Notes under the pieces: generated by a model | What the model was told of the DNA's origin: nothing | Seen by the model: only the letters and a program-made list of their open reading frames with translations | Databases searched by the model: none | From: a virus | Length of the DNA: 23,438 nucleotides | Strand: one strand, 5' to 3' | IMG/VR virus record: IMGVR_UViG_3300037427_004749 | Location: 1-23,438 of that record | Program-made: the position numbers and the translations under genes | Shown: piece by piece, positions 1,726-16,006 of the stretch | How the letters are laid out: every line of letters begins with the position of its first letter | Numbering within the stretch: position 1 is the stretch's first letter

Positions 1726-4700
1726 ATGGCTGAGCAGACTTTTCGATCACCAGGGTTTTTCGAGCAAGAGATAGACTTATCACAGCGTAGGGCTAGCCCA
1801 CTTGGAATACCAGCTGGTGTTATAGGTACAGCAGATAGAGGACCTGCATTTGTTCCCGTTACGGTTGGGACATTTGCAGATTTTGAAACACGATTTGGAA
1901 CTTTAAACTCTGATAGATTCGGCCCGTATGCCGTAAAAGAGTTTTTAAAGCATCGAAACGCGGTAACATTTATTCGGGTACTTGGTGCCGGGGCAAATGA
2001 TACAGGCACCGATATTTCAAACACAGAGACAAACGGCACAGTAAAAAATGCCGGATTTAAGGTTGTATCAACCGTCTTCGACGAGCTTGATAGTAAACCT
2101 TCGGGGCATAAAGGCGTCGTACAATTTCTCTGTGCAAGACACGTTTTAAGGAACGACGGTAATGGAACCGAGCTAAATGGATATCCTGTCTTTAGTGACA
2201 ATGATTCGTTTGCCGAGCGCCTTTCCGGCGGGGATAATAAGGTTAACTTGGTTCGAGGTGTGCTGTTTTCAGCAACAGGGTCCAAGTTCGAGGTCTTAGA
2301 CCACAATCAAACATACGCAAACCACGTTACAGCATTAAAATATACTGATGGTGCAATTTTTGGTAGCGGAAGTTCAGATGACGAAGGCTTCTTCAAGCTA
2401 GCATTGACATCATCATCAGGCGCTAGTTTTGCCAATGATGAATCACATGCTGGAGTGAGAATTTATACAGCTTCGCTTGATCCTTCAAGCAAAAATTATA
2501 TCGGAAAAATTCTTAATACAGATCCGGATAAATTCCAAGAAGAAGAGCACTTGCTCTACTTGGACTATGCAGTTGAGAATGAAATTGCTTATCCAGATGA
2601 TTTATCAACAATTCCTTCGATCGCATTGCTTTCAGGTTCAACTGAAACAACCAAGTCCGGTGGAGACACTTCCACTGCCTTCCGCGATCTTTACGGTAAT
2701 TACAATACAAGATATAAGGCACCCCAGACACCGAAAATAATTTCGCAACCGTATGGATCAGCAGAGTTTGATCTTTTCCGATTCGAATGCATATCTGATG
2801 GTGTTTCTGCAAATGAAGCATTCAAGATTTCTATTGCAAATATTAGAAAGTCTTCGGACCCACAATATGACTTTGGTACGTTTGATGTTCAGCTAAGAGC
2901 TTTCAACGATACTGATCAAAATCCGCAAATCTTGGAATACTATCCTGAGTGCTCTTTAGATCCAAACCATGAAAACTATGTTGCTAGAAAAATTGGCGAC
3001 AAAAGTGTCAAATACAACTTCGATGCTGATGCAGTTGACGAACGTCGTCTTGTTATTAAAGGAAAATATCCTAACAAGTCGCACAGAATTAGAGTTGTTA
3101 TGGAAGACGCCATTGAAAGAGACGAAGTGCCTCAAACAGCACTTCCCTTTGGATTCCGAGGCGTTCCGGTTCTTAAGACAACAGATACATTAGCAGATAA
3201 TCTCGGGACATCAATTAAAGATCGCTACGGAATTGCACACGGTATTGCCTCCGCAGTCGGAGGCGGTCGTCTTGGTGGCGTATTAAAGAATGGCGACGGC
3301 GTTGCTGGCGCTCTTTCCGGATCAATTGTTCCACCGCTTCCAATGAGATTTAAGGTTACAAGAGGTAAGCTTTCAACTACATCACACTGGGTAGGTCATA
3401 AGGGAGATAACGAAAGAGTTGACTCCAGACTATACTGGGGTGTTAAGTTTGAAAGACTACCAGTATCCTCCTCTGCAGATGCAGGATCCGTTTCAGAAGC
3501 AATTATGAATGCAAATATCTCGGCACTGCCTAACCCATTGGTTTCTGCATATGCAAGATTCCAAGGAATTGGCAAGCTGGATACATTGGTAACCGGATCT
3601 GCAGCAGATGATTTCAACAACAACAAGTTCTCATTGTCACGTGTTGCTCTTTATAATCAATTGCAAAGTAATCATATTACACACATTTCAGGAACTGCTA
3701 AAGATCACATGGTCGAAGCATCATACATCAGAAACGGTGTGCCGAACTCTGTTGACTATACTCTATCCGATCAGATAAGATCAGGAAGAATTACAATGGC
3801 AACATTGGTTCATTCTGCATCAACTGTCTTCAATCGATTCCAAGAGTACAATAAGTTCACTACAATGTTTTATGGTGGCTTTGATGGTGTCAACATCCTT
3901 GATAGAGACAATCGTCTCTTAAATGATAAGGCATCCTCAAGTGACTCAGGCGGTAAGGCTGGATCCACATTCAATGGTGGGCTTGGTCTTAAGGGAACTG
4001 ATGACGCAACCATGTCTGGCAAGGGTAAAGTAAATAATGTTGTTAACTCATTCCAAGTTGCAACTAGAATTATGACCGACCCAATGGCTTCAAACATGAA
4101 TATACTTGCAATCCCTGGTATGAGAGACACTTTTATTACAGATCACGCTCTGGGTGAAGTGAAGAACTACGGAATGGCAATTTATCTAATGGATCTCCTC
4201 AATTATGATGCAGACACCAATAGATTGTTTGATGACAGTACACAAAAGGTTGACGTAAGAGAAACTGCAGAACAGTTCGAAGGACGAGCAATTAACAATA
4301 ACTACTCAGCAACATATTTTCCTGATGTTTATCTTCATGATTCAGTTGCTAATAGGCCTGTTAAAATGCCGGCTTCAATCGCAGCCATCGGCGCATTAGG
4401 ATACAATGACAAAGTCGCGTATCCTTGGTTCGCCCCGGCTGGATTTAACCGCGGTGCACTTTCAGACGTATCTAATACAACATGTAGACTTAATTCTGCG
4501 GATAGAGATACCCTCTATGATGCACGTATTAATCCAATCGCGGTCTTCCCAACCGGTGGGTTCGTTATCTTCGGACAAAAAACCTTACAAATGGCGAAAT
4601 CAGCACTTGATAGAGTTAACGTTAGAAGAATGCTTCTAGAAGTTAAGCGTCTTGTGGTTGGTGTTGCTAACAGACTTCTCTTTGAGCAGAATAATGGTCA

Positions 4701-4923
4701 AACTAGAGCAAGATTTGTTAGTCAAGTAACACCACTTCTTGCTTTAGTCCAGGCTCAAGCAGGAATTGAAAAATTCACCGTTATCTGTGATGATACAAAT
4801 AACGGGGTGGAAGATCTAGAGACAAATAAAATGAACGGTAGAATTGTGGTTGTTCCGACACGAGCAGTTGAGTTCATTGCAATTGATTTCATAATCACAA
4901 ATAGTGGAGTATCGTTCGAGTAA
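1726..4923 (+). CDS. Tail sheath protein A (gp18 family, first of two tandem paralogues)
   Basis: 1065 aa; ATG at 1726 with AGGAG at 1712-1716 (spacing 9). The N-terminus (MAEQTFRSPGFFEQEIDLS, then GIPAGVIGTADRGPAFVPV at about residues 27-45) is the typical start of contractile-tail sheath proteins. The C-terminal domain has the conserved YPWFAPAG motif starting at residue 899, then DINPI-like ARINPI, FGQKTL and the RVNVRR helix, ending in the strand VEFIAIDFIITNSG. In known sheaths the N- and C-terminal arms exchange strands to form the contractile mesh, and both arms look intact here. Central markers are GTFDVQLRAF, YPNKSHRIRV, MFYGGFDGVNI and LAIPGMRD. T4 gp18 is 659 aa; the roughly 400 extra residues lie in the middle and would decorate the outer surface. 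The protein is clearly paralogous to the next gene (compare YGGFDGVNI with QGGFDGLNI, and LAIPGMRD with LAIPGMRH). The sheath call is nearly certain. Confidence 0.95.
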   Translation: MAEQTFRSPGFFEQEIDLSQRRASPLGIPAGVIGTADRGPAFVPVTVGTFADFETRFGTLNSDRFGPYAVKEFLKHRNAVTFIRVLGAGANDTGTDISNTETNGTVKNAGFKVVSTVFDELDSKPSGHKGVVQFLCARHVLRNDGNGTELNGYPVFSDNDSFAERLSGGDNKVNLVRGVLFSATGSKFEVLDHNQTYANHVTALKYTDGAIFGSGSSDDEGFFKLALTSSSGASFANDESHAGVRIYTASLDPSSKNYIGKILNTDPDKFQEEEHLLYLDYAVENEIAYPDDLSTIPSIALLSGSTETTKSGGDTSTAFRDLYGNYNTRYKAPQTPKIISQPYGSAEFDLFRFECISDGVSANEAFKISIANIRKSSDPQYDFGTFDVQLRAFNDTDQNPQILEYYPECSLDPNHENYVARKIGDKSVKYNFDADAVDERRLVIKGKYPNKSHRIRVVMEDAIERDEVPQTALPFGFRGVPVLKTTDTLADNLGTSIKDRYGIAHGIASAVGGGRLGGVLKNGDGVAGALSGSIVPPLPMRFKVTRGKLSTTSHWVGHKGDNERVDSRLYWGVKFERLPVSSSADAGSVSEAIMNANISALPNPLVSAYARFQGIGKLDTLVTGSAADDFNNNKFSLSRVALYNQLQSNHITHISGTAKDHMVEASYIRNGVPNSVDYTLSDQIRSGRITMATLVHSASTVFNRFQEYNKFTTMFYGGFDGVNILDRDNRLLNDKASSSDSGGKAGSTFNGGLGLKGTDDATMSGKGKVNNVVNSFQVATRIMTDPMASNMNILAIPGMRDTFITDHALGEVKNYGMAIYLMDLLNYDADTNRLFDDSTQKVDVRETAEQFEGRAINNNYSATYFPDVYLHDSVANRPVKMPASIAAIGALGYNDKVAYPWFAPAGFNRGALSDVSNTTCRLNSADRDTLYDARINPIAVFPTGGFVIFGQKTLQMAKSALDRVNVRRMLLEVKRLVVGVANRLLFEQNNGQTRARFVSQVTPLLALVQAQAGIEKFTVICDDTNNGVEDLETNKMNGRIVVVPTRAVEFIAIDFIITNSGVSFE

Positions 4924-4965: not shown

Positions 4966-7900
4966 ATGGCTGAGCTAACTTTTAAAAGCCCAGGGGTTTC
5001 AACCAGAGAGATTGATCTAAGCGGTCCAACCGCAAGGTCACCTCAAGGCGTCCCCGCGGGTATCATTGGAACTGCCACAAAAGGAAGGGCATTTGTACCA
5101 ATCACAATCGCAACTTATCAAGATTTCGTCGCTGAGTTCGGCGGAACAGATGGGGAGCAATTTGGGCCACTCGCAATGTATGAGTGGATGCAAAATGCCC
5201 GAGCCGGAACCTATGTAAGGGTTCTTGGCGTCGGAGATGGCCTTAAGAAAGTTTCGGGTGGAAACAACTCGGGACGAATTAACAGAGCAGGATTTATTGT
5301 AGGATCGCAGCAAGTTCAGGAAACTGGGTTGCTAGCAGATAATAGATTTGCTGGAGCTGATACTACATCAGGTGGTGTCTTAGGAAGAACATATTTCCTG
5401 GGCGCTTTGATGAAAAGTGGATCTTCAACATCTAAAATCTTTTCTGATCCTGGAATTGCGATAGCCGGTGAATCCACCGACCGAGCGATGCCGATTATTC
5501 GTGGTGTCCTCATGGCTCCTTCCGGAGTTATGTTGGGACTTTCATCATCTTGGGCAGCCAACAATGCTCCAGCACAAAACCAGGCAGCTTCCGGTACATA
5601 CGGTGAGGGACCTGGCGCTGCTAGCGGAACAGGCGACGCAGGTGCACAGCACGGAACAGTTGATATTGCAAATGGAAGATCAAACTTTGTTCTTCTTCTA
5701 AACGGCCTCAAGCCGTCAGCGCAGTATACCAACATTATTACAGCATCCCTGGATCCGACATCTGCAGAATACTTTGCTAACGTCTTTAATACAGACCCAG
5801 CGAAGATTGAAGAGGCAGGTCACTATCTCTACGCAGATTGGGCTGTTTATCCTTCAATGGCAGTTGTTACAGCATCCGGTGTTCAAACCGATACGGGAGC
5901 AGGTAATCCACATCACAGTTCTAATGAATCAGAAGCAGCCTTCCTTCTCACAGGATCACAGGCTCGTGACACAGGTACATCATACGTACCGAACTATGAA
6001 AGATTCTCTGATAGATTCCAGACTGCATTCTCCCCATGGGTTGTTTCGCAAAAATTTGGTGGTTCCAACAAGAGCCTATTCAAGGTCCATGCACTAGATG
6101 ATGGTGGCCGGGCAAATGATTTATTCAAGCTCACCATTGAAAACATTGCTGCTTCCAACAATGAAAACAACAAGTACGGAACATTCGACTTGGTTGTAAG
6201 AAGCTTTTACGACAATGATGAAAATCCAGTCGTTCTAGAGGCATTCCGAGGTCTAAGCTTAAATGTTGATTCCGAAAGGTACATCTCTAGAGTAATCGGT
6301 GATATTCACATGTATTACGACTTTGATCAAGCTGTGGGATCACAAAAGCTTCGCATCGACGGTGTTTACCCTAATAAGTCTAGATACATTAGAGTTGAAG
6401 CCCATAGTGATATTGATAGAAAAGTTTTAGATGCATCTGCGATACCTTGTGGGTTCCGTGGGCATCACTTCCTGTTAACATCCGGATCTAGCGCAACATC
6501 AGGCGCTGCAGCTCTTTACGGTTGGCTAACCGGCTCACATGGCGTAACAAACGCAGAGCTACAAGCCGCTCAGGTACCTCCCGTACCATATCGTACAGAT
6601 CTTAATCAGGGCTCAGGACTCAAGAAGAACATGCAATCCGCATTAACATGGGGTGTGCAGTTTGAGACAATCAATAACTCTGCTGATCTTAATCAGAATA
6701 CTGTTGTTGATAAGTCAATTGCTTCATACACCAAGTACTTCCCAAGATTCCATGATAGCTGGAAAAACGTTCACATCGGTGATACAGCAGGTACTGAAGC
6801 AGACGGTGGTCTTGTGTTAGACTCTGATACATTCCAGAATGCACTATTCTCACTAGAGAACATTCAGGTTTCTACAGGATCAACAGATCGCCCGATATCA
6901 AATCGCTGGGGCGCTGCTGAGTACAGAAGAACCGGTGTCAAGGCATCTTCATTAACAGACTCAGATGGAACATCGTATCCATCAGATGTTACAAGATTCC
7001 TTGACGCGTCTAAGGACTTCTCTGATCTTCCTTCCAAGAAGTATCTCAAGTTTACATTCTTTATGCAGGGTGGATTCGACGGTCTTAACATCTTCGACAA
7101 AGAAGTATCTGAAATGTCAGATATTGCTGCACGAAATGAGTTCGGCCAAGCTACTCAAGGAAAAATCTCCGGACCTACAATTGCTTCCTTTAGAAAGGCA
7201 ATTGATGTGATGGAAGAGAAGTCAGACGTTGATATTCAACTCCTGGCAATTCCAGGCATGAGACACGAAGCTGTTACAGACTACGCAATGGACGCAGTTG
7301 AAGATAGATTTGATGCACTTTACATCATGGATATTGAAGAGAAAGATCAGAACAATACGTTCCTGACAGGCTCTTCCCTACAGATTCCAAGTGTTACATA
7401 TACAGTCAATAGATTTGAGGCACGAAACTTAGATTCCTCATTCGCAGCTGCATACTATCCAGATGTTGTAATGACAGATCCGAAAACACAGACGAACGTG
7501 CAGGTGCCGCCTTCAGTGGCAGTTATCGGCGCATTCGCCTTAAACGATACCTTGGCACATCCTTGGTATGCTCCTGCTGGTTTCTCAAGAGGGGCACTAA
7601 AAAGAACAATAGAGGCACAAGTTAAGCTTAATCGCAATAACTTGGATGCTCTATACGAGGCAGACATTAACCCAATTACTTCATTCCCACATTCCAGTGG
7701 TGTGGTGGTATTTGGTCAAAAGACGTTACAAGCAGCACAAAGCTCTCTTGATCGGGTCAATGTTAGAAGACTGCTTATTGAGATTCGACGTAGGGTCAAG
7801 AAGATTGCACTTTCGCTACTCTTCGAGCCCAACAGAGCAGACACACTTGCTAGATTCTCTGCAGCTGTTAATCCAGTCCTTCAACAAATTCAAGCCCAAC

Positions 7901-8061
7901 AAGGTCTTGATAGATTTAAGGTCCAGATCGACACTACAACCACCACACAGGCGGATGTAGAAAACAACACGATTAGAGGAAAGATCTTCCTGCAACCAAC
8001 CAGATCTCTAGAGTTCATCTCGCTTGATTTTGTTGTAACTAATCAAGGTGCTGAGATCTAA
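4966..8061 (+). CDS. Tail sheath protein B (gp18 family, second tandem paralogue)
   Basis: 1031 aa; ATG at 4966 with AGGAG at 4953-4957 (spacing 8). It has the same plan as the preceding sheath gene: N-terminal MAELTFKSPGVSTREIDLS, GVPAGIIGTATKGRAFVPI at about residues 28-46, QFGPLAMYEWM, central GTFDLVVRSFYD and YPNKSRYIRV, QGGFDGLNI, LAIPGMRH, and a C-terminal HPWYAPAGF starting at residue 865. It ends with ADINPI, VFGQKTLQ, RVNVRRLL and LEFISLDFVVTNQG. A Gly/Ala/Ser/Gln-rich insertion at about residues 200-230, lacking in paralogue A, looks like a surface loop. Both genes keep the N- and C-terminal linker arms, so either could polymerise; neither looks decayed. Only one tube gene follows, so two sheath types would share one tube. 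They could form a mixed sheath, form separate zones along the tail, or be used alternatively; nothing in the sequence decides between these. Confidence 0.95.
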   Translation: MAELTFKSPGVSTREIDLSGPTARSPQGVPAGIIGTATKGRAFVPITIATYQDFVAEFGGTDGEQFGPLAMYEWMQNARAGTYVRVLGVGDGLKKVSGGNNSGRINRAGFIVGSQQVQETGLLADNRFAGADTTSGGVLGRTYFLGALMKSGSSTSKIFSDPGIAIAGESTDRAMPIIRGVLMAPSGVMLGLSSSWAANNAPAQNQAASGTYGEGPGAASGTGDAGAQHGTVDIANGRSNFVLLLNGLKPSAQYTNIITASLDPTSAEYFANVFNTDPAKIEEAGHYLYADWAVYPSMAVVTASGVQTDTGAGNPHHSSNESEAAFLLTGSQARDTGTSYVPNYERFSDRFQTAFSPWVVSQKFGGSNKSLFKVHALDDGGRANDLFKLTIENIAASNNENNKYGTFDLVVRSFYDNDENPVVLEAFRGLSLNVDSERYISRVIGDIHMYYDFDQAVGSQKLRIDGVYPNKSRYIRVEAHSDIDRKVLDASAIPCGFRGHHFLLTSGSSATSGAAALYGWLTGSHGVTNAELQAAQVPPVPYRTDLNQGSGLKKNMQSALTWGVQFETINNSADLNQNTVVDKSIASYTKYFPRFHDSWKNVHIGDTAGTEADGGLVLDSDTFQNALFSLENIQVSTGSTDRPISNRWGAAEYRRTGVKASSLTDSDGTSYPSDVTRFLDASKDFSDLPSKKYLKFTFFMQGGFDGLNIFDKEVSEMSDIAARNEFGQATQGKISGPTIASFRKAIDVMEEKSDVDIQLLAIPGMRHEAVTDYAMDAVEDRFDALYIMDIEEKDQNNTFLTGSSLQIPSVTYTVNRFEARNLDSSFAAAYYPDVVMTDPKTQTNVQVPPSVAVIGAFALNDTLAHPWYAPAGFSRGALKRTIEAQVKLNRNNLDALYEADINPITSFPHSSGVVVFGQKTLQAAQSSLDRVNVRRLLIEIRRRVKKIALSLLFEPNRADTLARFSAAVNPVLQQIQAQQGLDRFKVQIDTTTTTQADVENNTIRGKIFLQPTRSLEFISLDFVVTNQGAEI

Positions 8062-8636: not shown

Positions 8637-8666
8637 AAGGGGCCCTGAAATTCAGGGTCCCTTTTT
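8637..8666 (+). terminator. Rho-independent terminator after the tube gene
   Basis: A 10-bp stem pairs 8639-8648 (GGGGCCCTGA) with 8652-8661 (TCAGGGTCCC), with one G-U pair and a 3-base loop. It can be extended by AA/TT and is followed by five T at 8662-8666, then ATTT. This is a classical intrinsic terminator on the + strand. It separates the abundant sheath/tube transcripts from the chaperone/tape-measure genes. The rest of the gap (8667-8754) holds only the ribosome binding site of the next gene (AGGAG 8741-8745) and no promoter that I can identify with confidence. Confidence 0.9.
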
Positions 8667-8754: not shown

Positions 8755-9615
8755 ATGTCAGACCAAGGTAAGACTAGAGAGAGCAATAAGGTATTTACAG
8801 CAGATCAAGGAGCAAGATCTGCGATGCCTACTAGAAACGTAATGAAGGATGACTTCAACTTTGAAATTCCAGTAGAGTCCGTTCCTCTGCCTTCGTGTGG
8901 TATAACATATGCCACAGACTCAGCTTTGTCGCATCAAGAAACAGTTGATATCAAGGCGATGACAGCTAAAGAGGAAGATATTTTAACATCTAGATCTTTG
9001 ATTAAGAAGGGTACAGTTATTACACACCTTCTAAGGTCTTGCTTGGTTAATAAGAATGTTGATCCTGATGAAATGCTATCCGGTGATAGAAATGCTTTGA
9101 TGACTGCTGTTAGAATTACAGGTTACGGCTCAGACTATAATGTTGAAGTCGACTGTCCTGCATGTGGTGAAAGATCAAAGCAATCATTTGATCTTGCTGC
9201 TCTACCTATTAAGCGTCTTAATATTGCTCCTGTAGCAGACGGCGCAAATATGTTTGAATTTGAACTCCCACTAACCAAGAAAACTGTTAGATTCAAGTTT
9301 CTAACAGGTGCCGATGAGGCTGAGTTAGCTGTAATTCAAGAAAGAAAGAAGAAGCAGGGACTGTCTGCTGAAAATCTAGTAACTCAAAGACTTATGTTCT
9401 CTATTACTGCTATTGACGGTATTACAGACAAGTCTAAGATTTCAATGTTCTGTAGGCATATGCCAGCCCGAGATTCTTTGGCCCTTAGAAAACATATTGA
9501 TAAGCACGAGCCCGGTATCGATATGAAGTCCTGGATGGACTGCCCTTCGTGTCTCGAACACTCGGAGGTAAGGCTCCCAATCGGGGCCGCGTTTTTTTGG
9601 CCTGACACCCAGTGA
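8755..9615 (+). CDS. Baseplate hub / tape-measure assembly protein, T4 gp26-like, zinc-knuckle (short isoform)
   Basis: 286 aa; ATG at 8755 with AGGAG at 8741-8745. It resembles the T4-type baseplate protein family that contains gp26. Visible family signs are VPLPSCGITY at about residues 42-51 (an LPS-x-G-x-x-Y motif), a helical middle, two cysteine knuckles at C134/C137 (CPACG) and C263/C266 (CPSC), and the C-terminal AAFFWPD. The two CxxC pairs probably bind one zinc, with a domain of about 125 residues inserted between them. Family members of this kind lie upstream of the tape measure gene and act in hub assembly or as chaperones. The last codons contain a T7 run at 9592-9598 and overlap a second open frame, so this is probably the short product of a frameshift pair comparable to lambda gpG. 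No membrane segment or signal peptide is seen. Confidence 0.7.
   Translation: MSDQGKTRESNKVFTADQGARSAMPTRNVMKDDFNFEIPVESVPLPSCGITYATDSALSHQETVDIKAMTAKEEDILTSRSLIKKGTVITHLLRSCLVNKNVDPDEMLSGDRNALMTAVRITGYGSDYNVEVDCPACGERSKQSFDLAALPIKRLNIAPVADGANMFEFELPLTKKTVRFKFLTGADEAELAVIQERKKKQGLSAENLVTQRLMFSITAIDGITDKSKISMFCRHMPARDSLALRKHIDKHEPGIDMKSWMDCPSCLEHSEVRLPIGAAFFWPDTQ
9572..9598 (+). promoter_or_regulatory. Probable programmed +1/-2 ribosomal frameshift site (T7 run with 5' hairpin)
   Basis: The zero-frame codons are GCG TTT TTT TGG, so seven T lie at 9592-9598. Skipping one T (+1), or slipping back two, moves ribosomes into the frame that is open from 9572 to 9850. That frame's last upstream stop is TAA at 9569-9571 and the zero-frame stop is TGA at 9613-9615, so the slip site sits inside the only 44-base stretch where a shift could work. 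A hairpin of 6 bp (9572-9577 with 9583-9588, one G-U) ends 3 bases before the T run and may be a stimulator. A -1 shift would stop after two codons (TTG GCC TGA). The site is inferred from sequence and not proven. Confidence 0.65.
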
Positions 9616-9850
9616 TAAAGAAGTATTCTTAGAGCACATATTTGGGTTAATGTATTATTCTGGCTTCTCTTATACAGAGGCCTATAATTTACCTGTGTGG
9701 CAAAGAATATGGTTTATCCAGCGGATAAATAAAGAGATAAAAGCCTCCGACGGCCAAAGTAGGTCTGCGCAGAACAACACACCTGACTCCCGTGCCATGA
9801 TGAATCGCGCGCGTTCTCAAGTGCCGGCTAAATTAAGAAGATTTAGCTAA
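9599..9850 (+). CDS. C-terminal extension made by frameshift from the gp26-like gene (G/GT-type tape-measure chaperone)
   Basis: This frame adds about 83 residues after the shift, starting GLTPSDKEVFLEHIFGL and continuing with YYSGFSYTEAYNLPVWQR to a TAA at 9848-9850. An ATG exists at 9650 but has no ribosome binding site, and the amphipathic, protein-like stretch starts before it. No ATG, GTG or TTG lies between the opening of the frame and 9650, so entry by frameshift explains the frame better than independent initiation. The SYTEAYNLPVWQRIWFIQRI helix resembles the small helical domain of 'T-type' tail chaperone extensions, which bind the tape measure protein. The C-terminus is Arg-rich and polar. 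In many long-tailed phages a pair of this kind sits right before the tape measure gene, as here (one small gene intervenes). Alternative: a separate 66-aa protein from ATG 9650, comparable to a reduced gp51. Confidence 0.65.
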   Translation, partial: GLTPSDKEVFLEHIFGLMYYSGFSYTEAYNLPVWQRIWFIQRINKEIKASDGQSRSAQNNTPDSRAMMNRARSQVPAKLRRFS

Positions 9851-9946: not shown

Positions 9947-10189
9947 ATGTCAAATAAAAATCTAATGAAAGCATCGGCAAGGTATATTCTTGGAGAGTCT
10001 ACCGGCGTGCAAATTAAAGGGTCATCTGAGAGAATTAAGACTTTTCAAGAAGTATTAACAGCCAGTAAAGACTTATATGATGCGTTGTGTGAAGAGCGTT
10101 CTCTTGATGAGATAGTAACCCTATCAGAGACAAAAAAGAAAGCCGCTGCCGATTTTCGTAAGATTACAGGCATCACTTGGCGCTTATAG
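9947..10189 (+). CDS. Small conserved-looking protein of unknown function between chaperone and tape measure genes
   Basis: 80 aa; ATG at 9947 with GGAGG at 9935-9939 (spacing 7). I do not recognise the family. The protein is soluble and mostly helical in appearance. It begins with a basic segment (KNLMKASARYILGESTG), continues with an amphipathic helix around residues 28-48 (RIKTFQEVLTASKDLYDAL), and ends FRKITGITWRL. It has one cysteine and no signal peptide or membrane segment. The real-gene call rests on a good ribosome binding site, a start in step with the motif-bearing leader, and the absence of any competing frame. The position between a tape-measure chaperone and the tape measure gene suggests a role in hub or tape-measure assembly, or a minor virion component. 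That is context only. Confidence 0.75.
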   Translation: MSNKNLMKASARYILGESTGVQIKGSSERIKTFQEVLTASKDLYDALCEERSLDEIVTLSETKKKAAADFRKITGITWRL

Positions 10190-10252: not shown

Positions 10253-13200
10253 ATGGCTGATGATTTAGGCAACCAGTTAGCAATACAACAACAGATAAAT
10301 AAAGTTTTGCAAGACCGTCAGGCGATGATGGCTGCAAACTCGAAGCAGATGTCGAATCAGCTTCAATTTGCTGTTGACTTGTGTAAGGCTATGGATTGCA
10401 AGGAACTCGAGGATATCGAGGACCGAATGAAAGGCATCCACGACGAAATGCAAAAGGCCGCCGATCAGTCTAAAGAGCTCGGTGAGAATATGACTGATGC
10501 AGCCAATCAGGGTAAAGCTGCAATAGACGCACAAAACGGCTCGCTAGAAAAGAACAATAAGCTTCTGACAGCTGGAAAAGGCGCTGCAATCGGTCTAGCT
10601 GGTGGACTTATTTCTGGGTTCAAGGGCGGCATCGCAATGACGAAGTCATTGGTCGGCGCTATCGGAAATATTATCGGCTCCCTAGGGAAGGTTGGAAAGT
10701 CTATTCTTTCCCTACCTTTTAAGCTAATGGGAGGCCTAATAGGTATGGCACAGGGCGGCGGTGGCGGCCCCAGTCCCATTAGAGTCGAATTAGAAAACAT
10801 TCGAAAAGAATTTGGATCTCTGGCTTCCAATGAAGGTAAGGCAGCTGCGTCTTCGATGAAACAGTTTAGAGACCAGGCCAGTGATCTAGCTGGGACAGGT
10901 GTCTCTTTAAGAAAAGTCTTTGGTGCAGGACCTGGCGGCGTTGCAAAAGCAATGGCGTACAACCTCGAGACAATGAAAGCCCTTGGTCCGGCCGTAAGTA
11001 GATTCTCTGAAGCATTTGCTAATAGTGCCGTCGAACTTTCTGTCTTTAGAAAAGGCCTTGGATTAGCCGGCGATGAAATGGCTGGAATGATGAAACATCT
11101 CGAGGCCATGGGCAAAGACCCTGTTGACGGCTTAAGAGAAGTTACGTCAATGGCATTTCAGCTTGGTGATCAATTTGGAGTAAGCGGAAAGCTTGTTGCT
11201 AAGTCTATGGCTGTAATGTCCAAGGATGTTGCTAACTTCGGAACTCTGACTGTTAAGCAGTTAGGTACTGCCTCTGTCTTTGCTAGAAAACTTGGAATAG
11301 AAATTAAAGATCTACAGGGTCTAGTAGGCAAATTTGATAATTTTGAGGATGCAGCTCAGGGTGCAGCAAAACTAAGTCAGGCATTTGGCATGAATGTAGA
11401 TGCCATGAAGATGATGAAAGAGAATGACCCTGCTGCACGCCTCGCGATGTTACAGAAATCGTTTAAGGCTACAGGAAAAGATGCATCTCAATTAAGTCGA
11501 CAAGAATTAAAGCTTCTCGCCTCCCAAACCGGACTAAGTGAAGAAGCTGCTCGAACTGCCTTTAGCAATAAAGGCATGAGCATGTCGTACGATGATATCC
11601 AGAAGGCGGGAGGCAAGGCGGAAAAGAAACAGCTAACTCAAGCCCAAGCCATGGATAAACTAGCTGACTCTATGGAAAGAGTCTTCGGCGGCGGCGGCGG
11701 CAAGAAGTTCAAGAGCTTCTTTGATGCATTTGTCCAGGGATTCGCGCGGGGTATCACAAGATCTAAAGAATTCCGAAAGATTATGAGAAACATTAGGAAG
11801 TCTCTTAAAGTTGTCTACAGAGGCGGCCAAGAGATTGGAAAGATGTTTGTTAAGATGTTCCCTGGCGTTCAAAAAATGATGAAAGGACTTGGTGACCTAT
11901 TCGATCCTAAGCGCTTTCGTGGACTAATGAAAGATGTCAAGGGTGTTTTTAAGCAATTTTTCAAAGATCTCAAGACAGATCCTGAAGCAGGTGTTCAGTC
12001 TTTCTTTAAAAATATAACAAAGGCATTCAAGAAATTCTTTAAAGCAGGCGGTACAGGTTCACAGCAGGTGATGGAGGGTGGTAAAGAGTTTTTAACAGCC
12101 TTCTGGCATATTTTTAAAGGTGTCTTAGCACTTGCAGTCGAAGGCTTAGCAAAGTTATTTACCCTGATTGCTGATAAGTTAGCGAATCCTCCCAAAGTAC
12201 CTACTGCACTTGGTAAGGCGTTTAGATCATTAGGGAAAGCTGCCGGAAAGCTATTAGGCGAACTATGGAAAGTTCTTAAGCCCCCACTAATTAGAGCATT
12301 TAAAGCGCTGTTTGAAGCAGCAAAGCCTGTCATTAAAAAGATGGGAATAGTATGGCTCAAGATGATGCTGACAAAGATGCTAATTATGGGTGTTGCATCA
12401 GCACTTAAAGGTGCAGTTGTTGGTAAGATCGGAATGATGCTAACAGGAATGTTCTCTAAGGTATTTAAGGCAAATCCGATACCTTCCCCAGACGACGCAC
12501 TTCCTCCTCCTCGACCTGGTCCGAGTAGAATCTCGACATTCTTGGAAAAGCTGGGTGCTATCAAAATAATGGATATCGCAAAAGCCTCGCTTAAGTTGAC
12601 ATTATTAGGCACGCTGTTCTTCCCAGCTCTTGTAGTTCTAGCTATAGTAATGAGAGTTGTTGTAGGAATTATAGGACCTAATGATGCTATAGCGGCAGCA
12701 GCTGCCATGATTGCTATTGGTGTTGCAATTGTTTCTATGAAATTTGCCATTGACGCCGGAAGTCAAATTTCGTTAGGCAAGATAGGCAAGGCAATTATGG
12801 GATTAGTCGGCGGCGCCGCTGTCTTAGTCTCTGGCGCCCTAGTATTTTCGCTAGCCCTTAGGTTTGTATCCGCATTCTTTAAAGGTATTGACTGGATCGG
12901 TGTTGGTATTGCCATGATCGGTATTGCCGTTGCTATGGGTGCTGTCGCAGCAATGATATGGGCAGCATCAGTAGTTCCGAAAGAAATGATTGTGAACGCA
13001 ACTATGAACATGGCTGTGGCATCACTATTTGTACTAGCTGTAGGATTGTTCGCGCTGGCAATGCAAGTAACAGCACCGCAAGTTATGGCTGTTCCATGGA
13101 TGGCTCTGCTACCAGTAATGCTACCGATGTTAGGTGTCATTGCACTGTTAATAGCTACAGCATTTATTTCGCAAGCCTTCGCCGCCGTTGGTATTCCAGG

Positions 13201-16006
13201 CTCTATCGGCTTAGGGCACGGTTTAGTCTTTGCGCTTGCTCTTACTGCGTTTTCTTTTGCACTAACATTAATGTCCGGTATTGTGGCTACGCTAGCACCT
13301 CAAATGCCTCTATTCGTAATGTTTGCTGTTTCAATGGCACTCATCGTGGGCGCGCTGGCATTGACTGCCTTAGCAGCAACATATATCATTCCTTTCGCCA
13401 TACCAGGCTCTCTAGGTCTTGCCGGGGCGGCAATATTTGTTCTTGCAGCAGCACATTTATTAGGTCCAGCTCTAAAATCTTTTTATGAAGAAGTAAATTC
13501 TTTAGACTTCAAAGCGTTGGCAGTAGCATTCCTCGCTCTAGCACTAATCATACCTGCTGTAGGCATTATGGCTTACGCAGCAATTCCAGCGGGTATTTTA
13601 GGCTTCGTCGGGGCAATGTTTGTCTCTGGTATAGCGTTCTTTGTCAGAAAGCTTGCTGATCCAGACGGACTCCTTGGAGACCTTACAACATTTTCCGAAA
13701 ATGCCATGAAGCTTCCTTGGAAAGCCATCGCGGCATCATTCGGTGCTTTAGCTCTAACATTTATTGCAGTAGCTGCTATGGCTTACATATCTATTCCTGC
13801 TGGTGTTGCAGGCTTTGTTGGATCATTTTTTCTCGGTGGCGTTGCCATGTTTATAAACGCGCTAAACGAACCAGGCGGTGTTATCGAAGGCTTGGCGACG
13901 ATGAGCAAAAAAGTCAACAAGATTGACACATCTGTTGGGAGTAAATTAGAGACATTAGCCCAGTTATTTAGAATTATGGCTATGGCAGCAGAGATGAGTT
14001 TTGATCTGATAATTTTCTCTTTGCCGATTATCGGTACTATCATGAACAAAGCTCTTGATAAGATACCAGACTTCGCTGAGAAAGTTATTTGTTATCTTGA
14101 GCCTTCTATTAAAATGTTAGACCAGATGGTGCTCACAGACCCAGGAGGCCTGGAACAAAAAGTTAATGCTATCGGGCAACTTATGGAAGTTGTCGGAAGC
14201 TTGGCCGGAGTTGCTACAGCATTGGCCGGCGTCGATACCGATTCTATGCCTGACGGATCCTCCACCGGCAGTACGCTAGGCGCTGCAGAAAGCTTCATGA
14301 CCGGTCTATTTGAAGGTGTTCAAGGGCTTATTGAGGTTCTACTTGGCACACCCCTCACACCCGCACAGATTCAATCGGCAAATGCAATGGGTAATGTTCT
14401 TGGCGCTATTGGCGACATGGTAAAGGCTGTTGCACCGAGTCCAGAATTAATGAAGTCTCTTCGAAAAGAATCGAGCAGTTTGGGTGGATTATTCTCGTCA
14501 TCAGAGGCAGACACAGAGGCAATTTCTGCACTAGCAGACTACATGGACAGCATGATGGGAGCTATTCGAGATCAAATTCCCAAAATCATGGGTTCTATCA
14601 TGGAGGCTGTTAACTCAATACCATCCACACCCGGTGTCGGGAAGAAGATTAAATTAGTTGCTGAGGCCTTCCAGGTTATTAGTGTCTTAGCTGGTGCAAT
14701 TTCTGATATCATGGATGTTGTACCAAAGCAAGATGATCCAAAGGCACAGGCAGAAATGCTAAAGTCTGTAATTGACGCAGTTAATGGCGCATTGTTCGGT
14801 GACGGCGGAAACATCGGAGCTTTGAAAAAGGCTTTCGACGGTCTTAGAGACGTAGTCAATGCCGTACCTGCCGGAAAATCCTTTGCAGCAAAAGTACCAA
14901 TTGTCGCTGAGGCATTTGGTATCCTGGGAAGCTTTGCATCTTCACTTGGTGCTGTTTCAAAATTAATGCCAAAAGAAGTAGAAGGATCAAAAGAGATGGG
15001 CCCACGCCTTAAAGCTCTTCTCGAGCCAGGCGGTTTAATGGATGGAATCGTATCAGCCCTATCAGGTGATAACGGAATGCTAATGAAGATCTTTGATACT
15101 CTCAAAGGCGCTATTGATCAGCTTCCTGGGGATGAAGGTGCTTTAAAGGCCATGGCTACTAAGGTAGAAATATTAGGAAGTATGTTCGGTGTGGTCGGAC
15201 AGTTTGCCAGTGCAATGGCCGATATCGGCGGTATAATACCTAATGTAGAAGGTCAGCCACCTCCGCCGCTTGACAGCGCTATTACTTTCTGTGAGCAAAT
15301 AGTATCCTCGTTAGTCGGACAGGGCGGCGATGGAATGCTTGGAAAGCTAGCTGAAGGCCTCCTTGAAATTGTTACACAAGAGAGTACTAAGGATCTGTAC
15401 AAATACAGGCGCCAGATTAAGGGACTTGGTGATGCATTTGAAGTTATCGGTGTATTTGCAAAGGCACTGGGAGATCTTGCAGGCCTCTCAACAGGCGAAG
15501 GCGCAGGATCAGCCGGTATAACATCGATGTTGTCTAACTTGGCTGGCGCATACGGCAAAGGAATGACAGGAAATAATGACATTGTTGATATCATTGGTGG
15601 CTTCGCGAATATTGGAAAAGAGGCACAAAAAGCTCGTCTAGATACTCGATCCATGAAGAAGGGCGCAGATTTCGCATGCGCACTTTCTGAAACTCTTACT
15701 GCCATGGCAAATATGCCAGCCCAAATTGAGAGTGATGCAACAAAACTAGCAGATCAAATGGCACAAATTAGCTCGATGTTCGCATCAGCCGGCGAAGGCA
15801 GTGACTTCGCCATTGCAGTTGCTGTCGCCCAAGGACTCACAGGTCAAAAAGAGCTCGTAATTACACACGAAAATATGAGTATTAATCTAACAGTCAATGT
15901 CGAAATCGAGCCTGGCAAGTTCGCGAGAGGAACCATTTCAGCTCTGGGCCAGGTTAACGGTCAACCAGGCTACAAGACATTCGCCCCAATGGGTGAAGGA
16001 GGATAG
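10253..16006 (+). CDS. Tail tape measure protein
   Basis: 1917 aa; ATG at 10253 with AAGG at 10241-10244. It is by far the longest gene here, lies just after the chaperone pair, and has the composition of tape measure proteins: long helices, rich in A, G, M, K and L. The N-terminal 100 residues are polar and coiled-coil-like. Hydrophobic Gly/Ala segments lie at about 110-166. Five-Gly runs occur at G168-172 and G479-483. Residues about 335-405 (KLGIEIKDLQGLVGKFDN, then FGMNVDAMKMMKENDPAARL) recall tape measures of large phages. A strongly hydrophobic block at about 780-1265 contains six imperfect repeats, and residues about 1453-1740 contain four more of another type. The last 50 residues look beta-rich (ENMSINLTVNVEIEPGKF). 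At the usual 1.5 A per residue an uncut protein would give a tail near 285 nm. No lysozyme or peptidase motif is recognised. The call is firm from size and context. Confidence 0.92.
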   Translation: MADDLGNQLAIQQQINKVLQDRQAMMAANSKQMSNQLQFAVDLCKAMDCKELEDIEDRMKGIHDEMQKAADQSKELGENMTDAANQGKAAIDAQNGSLEKNNKLLTAGKGAAIGLAGGLISGFKGGIAMTKSLVGAIGNIIGSLGKVGKSILSLPFKLMGGLIGMAQGGGGGPSPIRVELENIRKEFGSLASNEGKAAASSMKQFRDQASDLAGTGVSLRKVFGAGPGGVAKAMAYNLETMKALGPAVSRFSEAFANSAVELSVFRKGLGLAGDEMAGMMKHLEAMGKDPVDGLREVTSMAFQLGDQFGVSGKLVAKSMAVMSKDVANFGTLTVKQLGTASVFARKLGIEIKDLQGLVGKFDNFEDAAQGAAKLSQAFGMNVDAMKMMKENDPAARLAMLQKSFKATGKDASQLSRQELKLLASQTGLSEEAARTAFSNKGMSMSYDDIQKAGGKAEKKQLTQAQAMDKLADSMERVFGGGGGKKFKSFFDAFVQGFARGITRSKEFRKIMRNIRKSLKVVYRGGQEIGKMFVKMFPGVQKMMKGLGDLFDPKRFRGLMKDVKGVFKQFFKDLKTDPEAGVQSFFKNITKAFKKFFKAGGTGSQQVMEGGKEFLTAFWHIFKGVLALAVEGLAKLFTLIADKLANPPKVPTALGKAFRSLGKAAGKLLGELWKVLKPPLIRAFKALFEAAKPVIKKMGIVWLKMMLTKMLIMGVASALKGAVVGKIGMMLTGMFSKVFKANPIPSPDDALPPPRPGPSRISTFLEKLGAIKIMDIAKASLKLTLLGTLFFPALVVLAIVMRVVVGIIGPNDAIAAAAAMIAIGVAIVSMKFAIDAGSQISLGKIGKAIMGLVGGAAVLVSGALVFSLALRFVSAFFKGIDWIGVGIAMIGIAVAMGAVAAMIWAASVVPKEMIVNATMNMAVASLFVLAVGLFALAMQVTAPQVMAVPWMALLPVMLPMLGVIALLIATAFISQAFAAVGIPGSIGLGHGLVFALALTAFSFALTLMSGIVATLAPQMPLFVMFAVSMALIVGALALTALAATYIIPFAIPGSLGLAGAAIFVLAAAHLLGPALKSFYEEVNSLDFKALAVAFLALALIIPAVGIMAYAAIPAGILGFVGAMFVSGIAFFVRKLADPDGLLGDLTTFSENAMKLPWKAIAASFGALALTFIAVAAMAYISIPAGVAGFVGSFFLGGVAMFINALNEPGGVIEGLATMSKKVNKIDTSVGSKLETLAQLFRIMAMAAEMSFDLIIFSLPIIGTIMNKALDKIPDFAEKVICYLEPSIKMLDQMVLTDPGGLEQKVNAIGQLMEVVGSLAGVATALAGVDTDSMPDGSSTGSTLGAAESFMTGLFEGVQGLIEVLLGTPLTPAQIQSANAMGNVLGAIGDMVKAVAPSPELMKSLRKESSSLGGLFSSSEADTEAISALADYMDSMMGAIRDQIPKIMGSIMEAVNSIPSTPGVGKKIKLVAEAFQVISVLAGAISDIMDVVPKQDDPKAQAEMLKSVIDAVNGALFGDGGNIGALKKAFDGLRDVVNAVPAGKSFAAKVPIVAEAFGILGSFASSLGAVSKLMPKEVEGSKEMGPRLKALLEPGGLMDGIVSALSGDNGMLMKIFDTLKGAIDQLPGDEGALKAMATKVEILGSMFGVVGQFASAMADIGGIIPNVEGQPPPPLDSAITFCEQIVSSLVGQGGDGMLGKLAEGLLEIVTQESTKDLYKYRRQIKGLGDAFEVIGVFAKALGDLAGLSTGEGAGSAGITSMLSNLAGAYGKGMTGNNDIVDIIGGFANIGKEAQKARLDTRSMKKGADFACALSETLTAMANMPAQIESDATKLADQMAQISSMFASAGEGSDFAIAVAVAQGLTGQKELVITHENMSINLTVNVEIEPGKFARGTISALGQVNGQPGYKTFAPMGEGG
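12749..13930 (+). repeat. Six imperfect hydrophobic protein repeats (about 61-75 residues) in the tape measure gene
   Basis: Recurring units pair a long Ala/Met/Val-rich hydrophobic helix with an anchor such as AIPAGILGFVG or SIPAGVAGFVG, then another hydrophobic helix. The anchors fall at residues 833, 908, 981, 1050, 1111 and 1181, giving spacings of 75, 73, 69, 61 and 70. The two most alike are those at 1111 and 1181 (MAYAAIPAGILGFVG and MAYISIPAGVAGFVG). They are visible at protein level; I did not see long identical DNA. Confidence 0.65.
14609..15480 (+). repeat. Four imperfect helical protein repeats (about 82-86 residues) near the tape measure C-terminus
   Basis: Each unit starts with VNSIP, VNAVP, IDQLP or LEIVT at residues 1453, 1535, 1621 and 1704. 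It then carries a helix like KIKLVAEAFQVISVLAGAIS, KVPIVAEAFGILGSFASSLG, KVEILGSMFGVVGQFASAMA or QIKGLGDAFEVIGVFAKALG. The spacing (82, 86, 83) is very regular. Less similar units may precede them (for example around AIGQLMEVVGSLAGVATAL). Confidence 0.7.

Follow-up and report, generated by a model that had tools for sequence, protein, structure and literature searches.

Predicted +1 frameshifting in the gp26-type tail assembly chaperone genes of a T4-related phage clade, with an upstream RNA hairpin as its likely stimulator

Results and discussion

A contractile-tail gene block from a viral fragment carries a gp26-type gene with an overlapping extension in the +1 frame, and the best explanation of this locus as a whole, held with good confidence, is that a T4-related myovirus makes its pair of tape-measure (tail assembly) chaperones by a +1 ribosomal frameshift, which an RNA hairpin just upstream of the slip site would assist. 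On a broader scale, the odds favour a large and broadly sampled T4-related phage clade that uses a natural upstream hairpin for +1 shifting at a UUU-Y site, whereas related clades that shift -1 lack such a hairpin and have structure downstream.

The tail gene block and its overlapping frames

The window (the whole stretch of DNA analysed, an IMG/VR viral fragment of 23,438 bases) encodes a gp15-like protein, two tail sheath proteins, a gp19-like tube protein, a gp26-type protein, a small ORF, a protein of 1917 aa and further tail proteins, and the features of the chaperone locus and the 1917-aa gene are on the + strand. The order of tube gene, tail assembly chaperone (TAC) gene, 80-aa ORF and 1917-aa gene is shared with phages immuto and LIS04, in which the equivalent next large gene is annotated as tape measure; on this ground and by position and size, the 1917-aa gene (10253..16006) is assigned as the tape measure protein gene, the presumed client of the chaperones. 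The layout is thus of the G/GT type, with a short ORF and its overlapping extension directly 5' of the tape measure gene. A small ORF separates the chaperone pair from the tape measure gene both in the window (80 aa, 9947-10189) and in Mel-JY01, and profile searches gave the window's ORF no convincing family match. A strong terminator-like hairpin (8637-8663) of 12 pairs, followed by a T-rich tail, separates the tube gene from the gp26-like gene. The tandem tail sheath-like genes (1726-4923 and 4966-8061) encode proteins of 1065 and 1031 aa that are 34% identical, both longer than T4 gp18, and represent a duplicated, probably two-component sheath.

The zero-frame product, TAC-N (8755..9615, 286 aa), matches Pfam PF12322 (T4_baseplate, E 2.7e-15) and PHROG 150 (baseplate hub, E 1.1e-18). 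Its ORF ends GCG TTT TTT TGG CCT GAC ACC CAG TGA, in which the T7 run occupies 9592-9598, the slip site TTT TTT TGG occupies 9592..9600, and the stop codon (9613..9615) comes 18 nt past the start of the P-site codon, a distance of 12-21 nt in all loci read. The +1 frame is closed by TAA at 9569-9571 and then open from 9572 to 9850 (92 codons plus stop), overlapping the gp26-like ORF by 44 nt; its earliest ATG, at 9650, has no clear ribosome binding site. The +1-frame extension, TAC-C (9599..9850, GLTPSDKEVF... to the stop at 9848-9850), has no usable start before 9650, is conserved in all +1 homologues and matches DUF6760 weakly (E 0.006). Translation with one T skipped gives the predicted fusion TAC-NC (8755..9850, 364 aa, junction ...LPIGAAFF-GLTPSDK...), for which an AlphaFold model was made; the predicted junction peptides are LPIGAAFFGLTPSDK for a +1 shift, LPIGAAFFFGLTPSDK for a -2 shift and LPIGAAFFWPDTQ for no shift. 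The first-pass annotation had placed the TAA, the open frame, the T7 run, the overlap and the first ATG at these same positions, all correct on recheck, and the stem of the hairpin that it had drawn 3 nt from the T run was recovered on folding.

Relationship to T4 gp26 and gp51

The match of TAC-N to PF12322, the T4 gp26 family, scores 57.1 bits against a curated cut-off of 24.5, and the fusion has the make-up of the family's long form, a gp26 domain with a C-terminal extension, as in gp51. T4 encodes the two forms in separate genes, gp26 being the short form and gp51 the long one: residues 1-201 of the 249 of gp51 match PF12322, and the remainder is a C-terminal tail. The first-pass annotation had cast a gp26-like protein in the role of 'G' and a gp51-like piece in that of 'T'. 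Homology to T4 gp26 and gp51 suggests that the pair serves as tape-measure chaperones. Membership of the extension in DUF6760 (PF20546) was rejected, its 17.1 bits lying under the cut-off of 27, and other +1 pieces match this family weakly or not at all. In the AlphaFold model of the fusion (mean pLDDT 84) the extension is helical (pLDDT 83-90), and is modelled as a helical domain on a gp26-like body. A BFVD search returned mainly gp26-like relatives and PDB sequence searches no meaningful homologue; the fold search gave nothing convincing, the HK97 tail chaperone 2ob9 being only a weak row (Z 4.5, rmsd 5.3, 95 aligned) that does not rise above unrelated rows.

Conservation of the site and of the frame relation

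With the gp26-like protein as query, 80 viral loci at 35-66% identity were found in IMG/VR, of which 78 have a readable zero-frame end (group A). The first-pass annotation had proposed an alignment of homologous loci as a check on the site, and the outcome was favourable and far exceeds coincidence: 77 of the 78 loci, plus the window, have the +1 relation and the codon pair [TTT/TTC]-[TTT/CTT] ahead of TGG or TAC, the variants including TTT-CTT-TGG (n=7) and TTC-TTT-TGG (n=3; L018, L043 and L058). The lone exception, L077 (3431-3697), reads TTC-TTC-TGG, with the extension placed in the other frame, which is possibly an assembly indel, or else a real change of direction. In 614 pairwise sequence comparisons, variability peaks at third codon positions, those of frame 0 ahead of the site and those of frame +1 beyond it, and a nearly invariant 12-nt core separates these two coding-phase regimes at the same point across homologues; conservation of the site follows in part from this double coding. 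A scan of genome contigs yielded few loci, mainly on contigs within MAGs that appear to be of phage origin. Dozens of independent contigs and isolates share the same arrangement, and a sequencing error in the T run was rejected on this ground. From this comparative evidence, programmed +1 frameshifting at the window locus is predicted with near certainty.

Queries from other branches of the family gave three additional groups. The +1 relation is found in 79/79 loci of group C (Flavobacterium phage immuto), at TTT-[T/C]TT-TGG, TTT-CTA-TGG and TTT-CTT-TAC, and in 15/15 loci of group D (Streptomyces phage BRock), at CT[AG]-TTT-CNN, whereas group B (cyanophage S-CAM8) has a -1 relation in 78/79 loci, at U-UUU-UU[C/A/G]. 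One Vibrio and one Pseudomonas T4-like phage are also -1. Isolates with the +1 relation are Mel-JY01, immuto, SP-15, LIS04, GXN1 and BRock, in all of which the extension is unannotated or called a separate ORF. In a tree of TAC-N proteins (n=81; support is weak on some deep branches) the direction of the shift is clustered by clade, +1 requiring 3 changes compared with a mean of 24.5 after shuffling, and a clade of 42 rows that unites groups A and C with L083 is entirely +1 (support 100/98).

GenBank annotation, for example of a 111-nt ORF in immuto and likewise in Mel-JY01, treats the downstream piece as a separate small protein, which reinitiation or internal initiation would have to supply, and the window does have an in-frame ATG at 9650. 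Yet the +1 frame is conserved from the slip site on, ahead of any start codon, and is devoid of ATG, GTG and TTG from -29 to +48 in 44 of the 78 group A sequences and from -59 to +90 in seven, so that a separate start cannot be general. Natural in-frame fusions occur as well: among loci in Planctomycetota genomes, some have -1 sites such as U-UUU-UUA (L109, L112-L114), while L110/L111 and L118/L119 encode both chaperone parts in one frame. These Planctomycetota gp26-type genes are probably those of phages or contractile injection systems. Expression of the extension as a separate protein, with no frameshift at all, is very improbable. The reading first proposed, a programmed frameshift that yields two chaperone isoforms, gains strong support from conservation, the phase switch, the loci without starts, the in-frame fusions and the composition of T4 gp51.

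Slip site chemistry

In the predicted +1 shift, the P-site tRNA-Phe on UUU (9595-9597) would re-pair to UUU (9596-9598), and GGC (9599-9601) would be read next. Groups A, C and D all follow a UUU-Y rule, in that the P-site codon can re-pair +1 and a pyrimidine comes next (TTT-T, TTT-C or CTT-T); for bacteria, sites in which a pyrimidine succeeds UUU (UUU_Ynn) are described as particularly liable to +1 shifting (PMC5009743).

The same reading frame would result from a -2 ribosomal shift at the T7 run, which adds one Phe relative to +1, and on TTT-TTT-T the P-site tRNA can indeed re-pair two bases back; phage Mu is reported to use -2 frameshifting. Against a -2 shift, the frame relation is kept at TTC-TTT-TGG, at TTC-TTT-CGT of GXN1 and at CTG-TTT-CNN of the Streptomyces group, where a -2 slip would put the P-site tRNA on TCT or TGT, with a mismatch, and +1 re-pairing of UUU to UUU or UUC works; because these variants of the T run preserve the frame but mismatch on -2, a +1 shift is favoured. 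In addition, an upstream hairpin is known as a stimulator of +1 and an attenuator of -1 shifting (PMC6321510). The first-pass annotation had left the choice between +1 and -2 open, and the site variants uphold the former while the mismatched P-site codons count against the latter, which is improbable.

Slippage of RNA polymerase, dropping one T or adding two at the T7 run with the aid of the terminator-like hairpin, would also join the frames; the hairpin and T7 together resemble an intrinsic terminator, and RNA structures upstream are known stimulators of transcriptional slippage (PMC12661321). However, a T7 run is missing from 10 of the 78 group A sequences (TTTCTTTGG, TTCTTTTGG) and nine of these ten retain the hairpin, many group C loci carry TTTCTTTGG and group D has only TTTC, with the frame relation intact in all. 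The absence of a long T run from these variants is evidence against transcriptional slippage, which is very improbable.

A selected hairpin upstream of the +1 site

The window hairpin (GGCTCC-CAATC-GGGGCC, 9572..9588; stem 9572-9577/9583-9588, loop 9578-9582) ends 3 nt short of the T run, has a z of -2.5 against synonymous resampling, and scores as terminator-like. For the 27 nt that precede the site in group A, folding is more stable than in synonymous resamples, at a mean z of -1.37 (about -1.4), compared with a mean z of -0.08 (sd 0.12, minimum -0.56) for 63 control windows elsewhere in the gene; the corresponding upstream z is -1.68 in group D, about -0.5 in group C and +0.2 to +0.35 in the -1 group B. 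When codons were exchanged at random among loci with the same amino acid, Z was -7.8 for group A, -2.5 for group C, -0.9 for group D (n=9, not significant by this column shuffle) and +1.6 for group B, and limiting the shuffle to clades and GC thirds left group A at -4.7 (0/100), with control windows ranging from -1.0 to +0.6. Before the shift codon, a hairpin at least as stable as -4 kcal/mol is present in 57/76 group A loci, the other 19/76 having none, compared with 8/40 group B loci. Covariation of the stem in a fixed register is weak (best Z about 2), and there is no single conserved register, so that the case for the hairpin rests on folding each locus individually. These results suggest selection for some hairpin adjoining the slip site, not for a fixed structure, and this selection, to judge from sequence comparison, is confined to the +1 clades, its signal being weak in group C.

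If +1 frameshifting is real, the hairpin might still have another role, such as transcript stability or attenuation, or be a by-product: its register is not conserved, it scores as terminator-like, and the conserved LP-x-G peptide by itself brings a tendency to CC...GG. This is rather unlikely, for peptide and composition are controlled by the synonymous and within-clade shuffles, and the signal is limited to the slip site, in +1 clades, and missing from the -1 clade. The hairpin is a likely stimulator of the +1 shift, and, having received only passing mention in the first-pass annotation, is probably the most novel part of the locus.

Two other candidate stimulators were rejected. Structure downstream of the site, considered as the main +1 stimulator, gives a modest signal in group A (z -0.66 to -1.17), weaker than that upstream. 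In the -1 group B (cyanophage-type loci L121-L200) downstream structure is clear: it is significant some 11 nt past the slip site (z -1.4), there is none upstream, and in cyanophage gp26 genes it probably stimulates -1 shifting. An internal Shine-Dalgarno stimulator of the prfB type would have the wrong spacing, and the A-site codon is TGG and not a stop. The peak of anti-SD pairing, 24-36 nt upstream, is beyond the prfB-type range and is explained in part by Glu-Val codons.

Proposed mechanism

The combination of a +1 frameshift that makes TAC-N and TAC-NC with an upstream hairpin that helps it is the best explanation, and a strongly probable one. The majority of ribosomes would terminate at the TGA at 9613 to give TAC-N (286 aa), and a fraction would slip +1 and read on to give TAC-NC (364 aa). 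The small 5' hairpin would re-form as the mRNA exits the ribosome, pushing or pulling the ribosome forward, and would thus raise +1 slippage and suppress -1. That shifting occurs, with what efficiency, and that the hairpin acts on the ribosome are inferred from sequence. Synthetic hairpins abutting a slip site increase +1 and decrease -1 shifting on bacterial 70S ribosomes (PMC6321510), and a natural upstream stem-loop was described in 2025 as stimulating +1 shifting in yeast ABP140 (PMC12661321), whose authors expect this mode elsewhere and list prfB, artificial hairpins and the bypassing of T4 gene 60 as bacterial parallels. The section on 5' stimulators in a 2016 review gives no natural upstream hairpin for bacterial +1 shifting (PMC5009743), a gap that the +1 phage clade would fit by analogy.

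Significance and comparison with known systems

If the proposal is true, this would be, among the literature found, the first natural bacterial or phage upstream hairpin that stimulates +1 shifting, and a widespread +1 solution would be added to the -1 shifts and separate genes already known in this gene family. The direction of the shift and the side of the stimulator would have been switched together, a natural experiment on whether structure behind the ribosome drives it forward and structure ahead drives it back; because the direction switches between clades in the same gene, a matched comparison of the two stimulators is possible. Present annotation of such phages overlooks the long isoform or labels the extension as an unrelated ORF.

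The first-pass annotation regarded frameshifting as undescribed for gp26/gp51-type genes, which was mistaken: Vladimirov, Gautam and Davidson (2022, Virology 566:9-15) reportedly identified gp26 and gp51 as the T4 chaperones and, according to citing papers, proposed frameshifting for T4-like phages, reporting it in other T4-like groups. Two citing papers (PMC10885494, PMC12846349) attribute the T4-like chaperone work to them; a citing paper gives the T4-like frameshift signals as -1 poly-T, and poly-T is also mentioned in PMC12846349. Frameshifted T4-type tail chaperones (2022) and the proposal of a +1 tail chaperone (in HSTV-2) are thus already known, and what appears to be new, subject to the content of the 2022 paper, is the pairing, across a large clade of phages, of a +1 UUU-Y site with an upstream hairpin under selection.

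The gp26 (TAC-N) and gp51 (TAC-NC) proteins of T4-like phages share family and role with the window pair, but T4 itself has two genes in place of the window's single frameshifted locus. Lambda G/GT resembles the window in having short and long isoforms encoded directly upstream of the tape measure gene, and differs in its -1 shift (at G-GGA-AAG) and in belonging to a different protein family by sequence. The tail chaperone of the myovirus HSTV-2, considered 'very likely +1' (Atkins 2016, PMC5009743), is an earlier +1 proposal like that for the window, but in an archaeal virus. Yersinia YopN-TyeA follows the same tetranucleotide slip rule as the window, and its description there (Atkins 2016, PMC5009743) includes no upstream hairpin. 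Yeast ABP140 has a natural upstream stem-loop 6 nt before a +1 site of P-site slippage, similar to the window, but is a single eukaryotic gene in which CUU re-pairs to UUA (PMC12661321). Bacterial prfB (RF2) combines a forward slip on P-site YUU-U with a duplex behind the ribosome, as is predicted for the window; in prfB the duplex is formed by a Shine-Dalgarno sequence with rRNA 3 nt upstream and the A site holds a stop codon, whereas in the window their places are taken by a hairpin and UGG.
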